The notes beneath the pieces are model-generated. The model was not told the DNA's origin. It saw only the letters and a list, made by a program, of their open reading frames with translations, and searched no databases. Of a DNA stretch of 64,000 bases, positions 8,590 to 48,004 are shown piece after piece; position 1 is the first letter of the stretch; every line of letters begins with the position of its first letter. Origin of the DNA: Sneathiella sedimenti (GTDB taxonomy: Bacteria; Pseudomonadota; Alphaproteobacteria; Sneathiellales; Sneathiellaceae); contig NZ_JAFLNC010000005.1 of NCBI RefSeq assembly GCF_017313765.1, positions 310,001-374,000 of the forward strand, in the 5' to 3' direction. A program made the translations under genes and the position numbers.

Positions 8590-9096
8590 ATGAAGCTTAG
8601 TGCAGGCATAGAACAGGCAATTCACAGCGTCACCATGCTATGCGGACTTTCGGACGATGGAGTTTTATCCGCCGCAGCTCTTGCCGAATTCCACGGGGTT
8701 TCCACGAGCTATCTTCTAAAGCATCTGCAGGCCCTTTCCGGCCGCGGAATTTTACAGACGGTTCCAGGCCCTAAAGGCGGCTACCGCCTTGCCCGTGCGC
8801 CGGAGGATATTTCCCTACTCGATATCGTGCTGGCCGTGGAAGGGTCCGAACCGGCCTTCCGCTGTCAGGAAATTCGTCAGCGCGGACCGAACCCACTCCC
8901 TGAAAGCACATATGTAAAACCCTGCGGGATCAATGTAGCAATGCTCCGCGCGGAGCAGGCCTATCGCGCGGAACTGCGCAAGGTAACCATCGCCGACCTC
9001 ATTACGGACCTCCGCGCCACCGATGACGGAACTATCATGGAACGGGGCTGCCGATTTCTGACCCTGAACGAACGCCACTCGACCACCAACAATTAA
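8590..9096 (+). CDS. Rrf2-family transcriptional regulator
   Basis: Winged-helix regulator of 168 residues. The N-terminal region has the Rrf2 layout: LAEFHGVSTSYLLKHLQAL is the recognition helix-turn-helix, followed by the wing GPKGGYRLAR. The sensing region carries C92 and C112 and a further cysteine near 153, but not the compact three-cysteine spacing of IscR or NsrR, so an iron-sulfur cluster cannot be assumed. The ribosome-binding site is GAGAGG. The next gene, eight bases downstream, encodes an AhpD-like protein, so a redox or electrophile signal is plausible. The strong palindrome in its own promoter is the likely operator. Confidence 0.9.
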   Translation: MKLSAGIEQAIHSVTMLCGLSDDGVLSAAALAEFHGVSTSYLLKHLQALSGRGILQTVPGPKGGYRLARAPEDISLLDIVLAVEGSEPAFRCQEIRQRGPNPLPESTYVKPCGINVAMLRAEQAYRAELRKVTIADLITDLRATDDGTIMERGCRFLTLNERHSTTNN

Positions 9097-9103
9097 CTTA
9101 ATA

Positions 9104-9580
9104 ATGGAGACTAAATTGCAATCGAGATTAAACTACGCCAAAGCCTCCCCCGCTGCGCTGAATGCCGTCCTCGGGCTAGAGAACTATGTCGTCAATATGT
9201 CGGGTTTGGACCGCAACCTTATTCATCTTCTCAAACTGCGCGCGTCGCAGATCAACGGCTGCGCCTATTGCGTGGACATGCACTCAAAAGAAGCGCGACA
9301 CAGCGGCCTTAGCGAGCAGTGGATCAACCTCGTCAGTGTCTGGCAGGAATCCCCCCTCTTTGATGAGCGGGAACGGGCTGTTCTGGAATGGACGGAAGCA
9401 CTGACGAATGTGGCAAGCACCGGCGCTCCGAGTACGGCCTATGAACCGCTCAAAGATCATTTCACGGAAAAGGAAATCATGGACCTGACGGTCGCGATCA
9501 GCACGATAAACGTCTGGAACCGCCTCGCCGTCGGCTTCCGCTCGCAGCACCCAATCGACGAGGTCAGAAAAGCTTCCTAA
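9104..9580 (+). CDS. AhpD-like carboxymuconolactone decarboxylase family protein
   Basis: A 158-residue helical protein with the alkylhydroperoxidase AhpD core signature: C53-A-Y-C56 followed by H60 in CAYCVDMH. In this family the cysteine pair forms a redox-active disulfide used in peroxidase chemistry, with an upstream reductant. The full domain spans about 25-130. The gene sits eight bases behind the Rrf2 regulator and is almost certainly in its operon, a pairing seen widely in proteobacteria. The exact substrate is not known. The ATG is directly preceded by AATGGAGACTAA-like sequence within the intergenic gap; the second possible start TTG at 9116 is less likely. Confidence 0.88.
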   Translation: METKLQSRLNYAKASPAALNAVLGLENYVVNMSGLDRNLIHLLKLRASQINGCAYCVDMHSKEARHSGLSEQWINLVSVWQESPLFDERERAVLEWTEALTNVASTGAPSTAYEPLKDHFTEKEIMDLTVAISTINVWNRLAVGFRSQHPIDEVRKAS

Positions 9581-35496: not shown

Positions 35497-36270
35497 ATGA
35501 CACAAGAACAAAAAATAATAACCGAAACAAACGGTCCGGTGACCACAATCATTATCAACCGGCCAGAGGTCCGAAACGCCCTGGACCAGGAGACTTCTGA
35601 CTTGCTGGCGCAGGCATTTCGCGAGTTTGACGCGGATGATACCCAGCGGGTTGCCGTCGTTACAGGCGCCGGAGGCGCTTTCTGTGCGGGTGCTGACCTG
35701 AAGGAAACAGCGACCCGTGTCGATTACAAGGCCTGGGCCGGCCATCCGGAGGGGCCGTTTCACGCCCCCCTGTCAAAACCCCTCATTGCCGCCGTAGAGG
35801 GACATGCAGTTGCCGGCGGTATGGGCCTCGCCCTCTATTGCGATATCCGCATAGCGTCTGACTCAGCCGTTTTTGGCATTTTCTGCCGCCGCTGGGGTGT
35901 CCCGATGAGTGACGGGACGACAGTCCGGCTGCCCCGCGTTATCGGTATGGGACGCGCCCTCGACATGATGCTGACTGGAAAGCCAGTTTCCGCGGACCAA
36001 GCCCTTTCCATCGGACTTGCCACACGTGTTGTTCCCACTGGCACCGCGCGTACCGCCGCGGAAGAGCTCGCCCTTCAAATTGCGAATTTTCCGCAAATCG
36101 CCATGCTGTCGGACCGCGAGAGCATCTATATGCAGGAAGGAAAGACCGATGCAGACGCCATTCACTTCGAAATGACCGCTGCGGAAGAGGCCAAGCAGAA
36201 AGAAGCGCAAGTTGGCGCCGCCCGCTTCGCCGCCGGTGAAGGCCGACATGGGGACTTCAAAAAAACCTAG
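35497..36270 (+). CDS. Crotonase-family protein lacking both hydratase glutamates
   Basis: A 257-residue enoyl-CoA hydratase/isomerase-family protein. The fold is clear: INRPEVRNALDQETSD, GAFCAGADLKE for the first oxyanion region, and EGHAVAGGMGLALYCDIRIA for the second. However, at the positions of the two catalytic glutamates of crotonase (E144 and E164 in rat) it has G in GGMGLAL and C in FGIFCRRWG. An aspartate in VPMSDGTT lies where isomerases keep an acid. Function is therefore probably not classical hydration. It converges tail to tail with the lrp gene, overlapping by four bases. Confidence 0.85.
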   Translation: MTQEQKIITETNGPVTTIIINRPEVRNALDQETSDLLAQAFREFDADDTQRVAVVTGAGGAFCAGADLKETATRVDYKAWAGHPEGPFHAPLSKPLIAAVEGHAVAGGMGLALYCDIRIASDSAVFGIFCRRWGVPMSDGTTVRLPRVIGMGRALDMMLTGKPVSADQALSIGLATRVVPTGTARTAAEELALQIANFPQIAMLSDRESIYMQEGKTDADAIHFEMTAAEEAKQKEAQVGAARFAAGEGRHGDFKKT

Positions 36271-36722
36271 AGGACCGGATAGCCTTTCCACGTCTTGATC
36301 GCGCGGAGCGCAAAGGTGGATCGCATACTCGCAACATGGGGCAGCTTGGCCAGGCAGTTGCGGTGGATGCGGTCATAATCCGGCACGTTCCGCGCCGCCA
36401 CCCGGATGATATAGTCGGCGTTGCCCGTTGTCAGATGGCATTCGAGAATTTCGTCATAGTTCATGACTGCTTTCTCAAAAAGATCAAGTGTTTCCTGGCT
36501 TTGGGACGTGAGGGAAATTTCAACGAAGACATCAGCTTCGAGACCCAGCGCGTGCCGATCGAGCCGCGCCGCGTAGCCGTCAATCACACCCGCCTCTTCC
36601 AGCATTTTTATGCGCCGATGACAGGCGGAGAGCGAAAGATTGACCCGCTCCGCTATCTCAGAAATCGACTTGCCGGAGTCGCTCTGCAATTCAGATAATA
36701 TTTTGCTATCAAAGTGGTCTAT
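36267..36722 (-). CDS. Lrp/AsnC-family regulator, probable start codon ATA
   Basis: A 151-residue transcriptional regulator if it starts at the ATA at 36722. The N-terminal helix-turn-helix (ISEIAERVNLSLSACHRRIKML) is followed by a hinge and an Lrp ligand-sensing domain (about 65-140). The first conventional start, TTG at 36689, would remove the conserved helix DHFDSKILSELQ that opens nearly all Lrp proteins. ATA is preceded by AGGAA at an eight-base spacing, and an in-frame stop lies further upstream. It is divergent from the alanine dehydrogenase gene, so it is probably its regulator (AldR-like). Confidence 0.85.
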   Translation of the reverse strand: MDHFDSKILSELQSDSGKSISEIAERVNLSLSACHRRIKMLEEAGVIDGYAARLDRHALGLEADVFVEISLTSQSQETLDLFEKAVMNYDEILECHLTTGNADYIIRVAARNVPDYDRIHRNCLAKLPHVASMRSTFALRAIKTWKGYPVL

Positions 36723-36761
36723 AGAATATTTTCCTAATATTCGTGTCTAGAACCGTATTTT

Positions 36762-36794
36762 ACACCAAATTAAGGTGTCACGGAAATAAATTTC
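36762..36794. promoter_or_regulatory. Two small palindromes between lrp and ald
   Basis: ACACC-aaattaa-GGTGT (36762-36778) and GAAAT-AA-ATTTC (36783-36794) lie in the divergent region. AT-rich centres with short symmetric arms suit Lrp-family binding; they are candidate operators for ald. Confidence 0.45.
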
Positions 36795-36864
36795 GGAAAA
36801 TATACCGGTGAGAAAAAGCTATACTCCGACAATCAACTCAATCTGCAAACAGGGAGCAAAAGGC

Positions 36865-37983
36865 ATGATCGTTGGAACGCCTAAAGAAATCAAAAACCAT
36901 GAATATCGCGTCGGGCTGACACCGGAAAGCGTCGGTGAGCTCGTCGCGCATGGACATGAAGTGCTGGTCGAAACCGACGCGGGCAAGGGCATCGGCGCCC
37001 TAAACGATGCCTACGAAGCAGCCGGCGCAAAAATAGTAGATACTGCGGAAGAAATTTTTACCCGCGCTGACATGGTGGTTAAGGTGAAGGAACCACAGGC
37101 GGCGGAACGGGCAATGCTGCGCGAGGGCCAGATCCTCTATACTTATCTTCATCTTGCCCCCGACCCTGAGCAGACCCATGACCTGATGAAATCAGGCGCC
37201 GTCTGCATTGCCTATGAAACAGTAACGGATAACAACGGCGGCCTCCCGCTCCTCAAACCCATGAGTCAGGTAGCCGGCCGCATGTCCGTGCAGGCAGGCG
37301 CCTCGGCACTCGAAAAATCCCACGGCGGCCGCGGCGTGTTGCTGGGCGGGGTGCCGGGCGTTGCACCGGGCAAGGTCGTCATCATCGGCGGGGGTGTTGT
37401 CGGCTTTAACGCCGCTCAGATGGCAATCGGCATGCATGCGGATGTCACCATCCTTGATCGCAATCCGATGGCGCTGGAGCGCCTCGAAAATCACTTTGAA
37501 TCCTCGGCCAAGGTCATTTACTCCACCAATGCCTTGCTTGAACGGCTCGTCATGGAGGCCGATCTTGTGATCGGCGCGGTGCTGATCCCGGGCGCAGCGG
37601 CGCCGAAGCTGGTGACGCGAGAGATGCTGAAAACCATGCAGGACGGTTCGGTCATTGTCGATGTCGCGATCGACCAGGGCGGTTGTTTCGAAACATCAAA
37701 GGCGACGACCCACGCGGATCCGACCTATGTGATCGATGGCGTTGTGCATTACTGCGTTGCCAACATGCCGGGCGGCGTTGCCCGGACGTCAACCTACGCG
37801 CTCAACAATGTCACCCTGCCCCACGCTCTTAGAATCGCTGACAAGGGTTGGAAACAGGCATTGAAAAACGACCCTCATCTGGCAAACGGGCTCAATGTCT
37901 GGAACGGCAAGGTCACCTGCGAACCTGTTGCCCAGGATCTCAAGCTTGACCACACCCCTCTCGAAGCTGCCCTTCAGGGCTGA
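36865..37983 (+). CDS. ald: Alanine dehydrogenase
   Basis: Reversible NAD-dependent oxidative deamination of L-alanine to pyruvate and ammonia. The 372-residue enzyme starts [20 protein letters not shown], the usual family opening, and has the NAD fold [19 protein letters not shown] and [12 protein letters not shown]. The ATG at 36865 after AGGGAGC fits the family length; the ORF extends upstream without support. It is under the divergent Lrp-family regulator and ends at a strong terminator. Confidence 0.96.
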
Positions 37984-47717: not shown

Positions 47718-48004
47718 TGATTTACGCAATTACCGCCATCGCCATATTGATCAGCATTGCGCTTGCCCTCACCCGGGCTATTCTGGGCCCGACATCCTAT
47801 GATCGCATTTTGTCAGCCAATGCAATCGGAACAAAGACCGTGCTGCTGATCGGGGTCATGGGATTTCTTGCCGGGCGCCCTGACTTCCTGGATCTCGCCC
47901 TGGTCTATGCGCTTGTCAATTTCATTGGCACCCTCGCCGTTTTGAAATATTTCAAATTTGGAACCTTGCGCGGCACTCTTTCAAAACCGGCGGATAATTC
48001 CTGA
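47714..48004 (+). CDS. mrpF: Mrp-type antiporter subunit F
   Basis: A 96-residue membrane protein with three hydrophobic segments. ALTRAILGPTSYDRILSANAIGTKTV and LVYALVNFIGTLAVLKYFKF match MrpF/MnhF (PhaF). The start ATG at 47714 overlaps the E stop. It is within an uninterrupted operon. Confidence 0.9.
   Translation: MMIYAITAIAILISIALALTRAILGPTSYDRILSANAIGTKTVLLIGVMGFLAGRPDFLDLALVYALVNFIGTLAVLKYFKFGTLRGTLSKPADNS

Follow-up and report, generated by a model that had tools for sequence, protein, structure and literature searches.

The window, a stretch of 64,000 nucleotides from Sneathiella sedimenti, carries on its minus strand a gene for a regulator of the Lrp/AsnC family (lrp, 36270..36722), whose 151 codons run from an ATA at 36722 to a TAG stop at 36269-36267. 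The ATA codon (36720..36722, minus strand) is preceded by a Shine-Dalgarno-like AGGAA (36731..36735, minus strand), with eight bases, AATATTCT, lying between the two, and similar sequence is found at the same place in relatives. An in-frame TAG (36747..36749, minus strand) stands nine codons upstream of the ATA, and from this stop to codon 12 the minus strand of the window has no in-frame ATG, GTG, or TTG, the first conventional start being the TTG of codon 12 (36687..36689, minus strand). A previous sequence-only reading had described this lack of an early conventional start before TTG 36689, as well as the ATA, the AGGAA, and the upstream stop; re-reading the sequence and the frame confirmed the description, and all of its coordinates are correct.

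Divergently from lrp lies a gene (36865..37983, plus strand) that we take from its sequence to be ald, coding for alanine dehydrogenase, with an ATG start that aligned in five species. The two genes adjoin each other in this divergent arrangement in all 11 Sneathiella loci. Inspection by eye of the intergenic region revealed a possible -10 element of the lrp promoter, TAAAAT (36757..36762, minus strand), which occurs at the same distance in all five species with the ATA codon, and a conserved box, TCCGAAATTTATTTC (36783..36797), recognisable in most of the 11 loci. This box may be a putative operator common to lrp and ald.

The lrp product matches the Pfam models AsnC_trans_reg (6.6e-20), HTH_24 (5.5e-18), and HTH_AsnC-type (5.4e-13), and it possesses the N-terminal AsnC-type helix-turn-helix (HTH) and the C-terminal AsnC ligand-binding domain that place it in the Lrp/AsnC family. 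When the protein is read from the ATA, all three AsnC models (two HTH and one ligand-binding) score above the Pfam cut-offs, and the additional N-terminal residues raise the scores from 47.9 to 64.7 bits for HTH_24 and from 29.2 to 49 bits for HTH_AsnC-type, relative to the version starting at the TTG. The best solved relative found in a PDB search is the leucine-responsive regulatory protein 2gqq (E 2.4e-23), and the lrp product is predicted to be an amino-acid-responsive DNA-binding regulator.

As the sequence-only reading had proposed, relatives were aligned at the lrp start codon. With an E value of up to 1e-40 as the threshold for orthologs, 11 of the 25 genomes of the family carry lrp, all of them within the genus (24 genomes), and an order-level search for lrp orthologs, which covered the same 25 genomes, added none; the named matches at 77-92% identity are mostly Sneathiella. 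The codon aligns without gaps with ATA in four other Sneathiella, namely, S. chungangensis KCTC 32476 (G003), MAG em_oilr2 (G021), Sneathiella sp. HT1-7 (G018), and MAG IN21 (G010), and with ATG in the remaining six (G023, G019, G013, G011, G020, and G007), giving ATA in 5/11 and ATG in 6/11. Five outgroup orthologs from Geminicoccaceae (L024, G311, G219, G105, and G279) have ATG at the same codon, as does one of the two lrp copies of G352. Nioella and the second G352 copy have a conventional start a few codons further upstream, so their aligned codon does not serve as the start. The lrp codon resembles conserved non-canonical (AUA) starts in that it aligns with the AUG of orthologs, lacks an alternative start, and is present in several species.

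Several observations bear on where translation begins in the five ATA species. None of them has a conventional start upstream of the ATA before the in-frame stop, and the next one downstream differs among them: TTG at codon 12 in the window only, ATG at codon 14 in IN21, and, in the three others, an ATG that lies within the DNA-binding domain at codon 40. The ATA is the only start candidate that is common to all five and that gives the whole DNA-binding domain. Furthermore, the differences between the five species in codons 2-12 fall on third positions in 27 cases, on first positions in 14, and on second positions in none, whereas the 60 bases upstream of the ATA show no such strong bias (57/65/79 differences by position); this contrast indicates that coding begins at the ATA. 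Synonymous codon differences exceed non-synonymous ones both in codons 2-39 (109 versus 55) and in codons 40-150 (463 versus 144). The use of AUA as the start of lrp, which the sequence-only reading had put forward, is strongly supported by these comparisons and by the recurrence of ATA in the orthologs, and translation of the regulator from AUA is very probably the best explanation of the data.

The other explanations that we considered for the start fare much worse. TTG is a common start codon and is available in the window, which speaks for translation from TTG 36689 or from another downstream codon, to yield a truncated protein; yet the TTG is not conserved, codon 12 reading CTG in three of the other four ATA species and TTA in the fourth, a start at codon 40 would delete most of the HTH in the three species where it comes next, and codons 2-39 are under coding constraint. 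We rejected the TTG as the conserved start and regard any such truncation as very improbable. No more credible is a start provided by a different non-standard codon upstream or by a frameshift: two ATA species do keep the frame open for about 33 codons before the ATA, but the three others have stops at codons -9, -7, and -6, no start-type codon upstream is common to the ATA species (by eye), and the upstream differences lack a coding pattern. Decay of an untranslated lrp in the ATA species, for which loss of the canonical start would be the usual first step, deserves as little credence, since none of the orthologs contains an internal stop and the excess of synonymous differences persists over codons 40-150. 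Finally, the sequence-only reading had offered an ATG misread as ATA as an alternative, and the ATG of the six sister species might be taken to favor a sequence error or a recent mutation private to this genome. The identical ATA in five separately assembled genomes removes this option, which we consider practically negligible, and the ATA of lrp, on the strength of these alignments, is a codon kept in nature and not a sequence error.

Two controls addressed how often an aligned start codon is ATA by chance. In the local control, which comprised 65 frames around the window with the start aligned in up to five species, ATA occurred in none of 238 filled cells. The wider control compared 374 kb of the same contig with parts of the genomes of two relatives and yielded 285 accepted frames with matches in both relatives, 274 of which had a conventional start on which two or more of the three species agreed. 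Only 1 of 817 filled start cells was ATA, directly before an ATG in a presumably gltX-like gene of HT1-7. The other 11 frames, in which no conventional start was agreed within the range scanned, were lrp, six whose conserved ATG lies deeper in the frame, and four untrusted frames that appeared by eye to be antisense, tRNA-derived, or short; lrp alone among them has an ATA behind a Shine-Dalgarno-like sequence. In the frame at contig positions 358355-359425, an ATA is aligned ahead of the agreed start, a conserved ATG that explains the gene. No other credible AUA start was found among the 274 neighboring genes in the three species, and the ATA start of lrp exceeds chance expectation. Of note, two frames vary at the start in other ways. 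The frame at 9077-9580 (plus strand) has TTG in the window at 9116, the corresponding codon of HT1-7 and S. chungangensis being ATG, and the frame at 48004, with ATG in the window and in S. chungangensis, aligns there with an ATT of G007, which may be another non-canonical start or reflect a shift of the start.

The history of the codon was examined with the neighboring genes included. Among the five ATA species, only 37 of 333 four-fold positions in lrp, ald, and ech do not vary, and the pairwise JC distances at these sites range from 0.73 to 1.43; by this measure of sequence divergence, the ATA of lrp has outlived wide divergence. Around the lrp start itself, the third position is invariant at 6 of codons 2-13 (by eye), and since third positions are partly conserved there, the persistence of the A is weak proof of selection. 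A gene tree of lrp was built from 16 rows, with the start codon excluded and with Nioella and both G352 copies left out. It requires two changes of the start codon, as does the tree of lrp, ald, and ech together, and the tree of ald and ech requires three (15 rows in each of the latter two). A clade made of the five ATA rows alone was rejected (p-AU 0.0006 and 0.0025, tested post hoc, after the first tree). Once G023, which has ATG, is added to the five ATA rows, a modestly supported branch (77/79) separates these six rows from the rest in the tree of the three genes, and this group is not rejected with ald and ech (p-AU 0.24). Both a single gain of ATA followed by a return to ATG in G023 and multiple gains fit these results. 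Because G023, a species within the ATA group or adjacent to it, has ATG, the AUA of lrp is not indispensable.

The same codon starts another gene of these organisms. We located infC, the gene for initiation factor IF3, by PF05198 in 23 of the 24 Sneathiella genomes, and its start is ATA in all 23 (L059, G000:C1:1066288-1066491, and 22 other loci), behind AAGGAG or a close variant, with a stop codon (TAA or TAG) mostly abutting the ATA. Elsewhere in the class, 58 genomes were searched and 56 gave a match; 30 loci were inspected, and 23 of these could be placed by motif. By eye, 17 of the 23 placed loci show, 14-22 codons ahead of the motif, an ATA that follows a Shine-Dalgarno-like sequence, and two more have ATC, which makes AUA on infC ordinary for the class. 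The Shine-Dalgarno pairing energy is -7.1 for infC and -3.9 for lrp, the latter close to the median of -4.0 for 236 genes, so that lrp does not have an extended Shine-Dalgarno of the Staphylococcus aureus type. RNA structure around the lrp start was not clearly above that of shuffled sequences in the three species analyzed (z 0.20, -0.59, and 1.15). A-to-I editing of the AUA and a special initiator tRNA were also considered. For the latter, a scan of 32 loci from among the 46 tRNA matches recovered the initiator with anticodon CAU and no UAU anticodon. As a separate observation, made by eye, this initiator tRNA (L092:39-115) has C1 facing A72, and its anticodon stem ends in AGG/CCU and not in the usual GGG/CCC.

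IF3 rejects non-AUG starts. We propose that the ordinary initiator tRNA (CAU) would read AUA with two bases paired and the third mismatched and, from established knowledge, that this pairing at two bases would still place fMet as the first residue of Lrp. The discrimination of IF3 against mismatched pairs would in turn make translation of lrp weak and probably sensitive to IF3. IF3 disfavors weak codon-anticodon pairs according to PMC10158994, a statement on such pairs at large that does not name AUA with CAU. In S. aureus, infC, ccpN, and citZ are described as having AUA starts, and reporters with three non-canonical starts reached about 10% of the AUG level, the ccpN AUA reaching up to 30% in rich medium (PMC13009471). 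Based on this precedent and on the CAU mismatch, we presume low-level synthesis of Lrp from the AUA. By analogy with infC in the same genome, which likewise starts at AUA, the weak start probably keeps the regulator scarce and may tie its synthesis to the level of IF3; from this we infer a regulatory benefit.

Whether selection has favored such an effect is a question on which we stay cautious. It is conceivable, albeit unlikely, that the AUA of lrp was selected as a throttle governed by IF3, that its presence on both infC and lrp couples a regulator of alanine metabolism to the translation machinery, and that species toggle the control by a single A/G change. It may instead be, and we find this quite possible without holding it as probable, that the AUA is used but merely tolerated, slightly harmful and devoid of a regulatory role, having persisted by drift while reverting, as the ATG of G023 would illustrate. 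The nesting of one ATG species among ATA species, the local synonymous conservation, which makes the retained A less telling, and the only average Shine-Dalgarno of lrp all agree with tolerance. Against it, the few invariant four-fold sites imply ample time for a one-step return to ATG, and AUG-to-AUA is not among the switches that PMC5622118 lists for 61,358 ancestral AUG starts.

Three known systems help to situate lrp. Like lrp, infC has AUA behind a Shine-Dalgarno, in Sneathiella itself, and a start of the type discriminated by IF3; it differs by its strong AAGGAG and by encoding the discriminating factor, whereas lrp has an average Shine-Dalgarno and encodes a transcription regulator. Regulators of the Lrp/AsnC family beside ald are known as the AldR type, and they share with lrp the domain make-up and the position; they start with AUG, unlike lrp, whose effector and binding sites are putative. 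The S. aureus repressor gene ccpN, as described in PMC13009471, likewise has a conserved AUA start on an HTH transcription regulator, although it belongs to a Firmicute and to another regulator family, has an extended Shine-Dalgarno, and had its start mapped experimentally, that of lrp coming from comparison. Among the papers searched, none treats both Sneathiella and Lrp, and the closest precedent found was the S. aureus study.

Regulator genes with conserved AUA starts are thus already known, and the lrp of Sneathiella adds one to them. It is notable in view of the absence of AUG-to-AUA from the switches in the start-codon reconstruction of PMC5622118. With gene callers that accept only ATG, GTG, and TTG, the gene would come out truncated or misplaced. 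Together, the sister species, some with ATA and others with ATG at the start of the same regulator, form a natural set in which to test the cost and the use of a weak start, in a genus that also carries infC with the same AUA codon.
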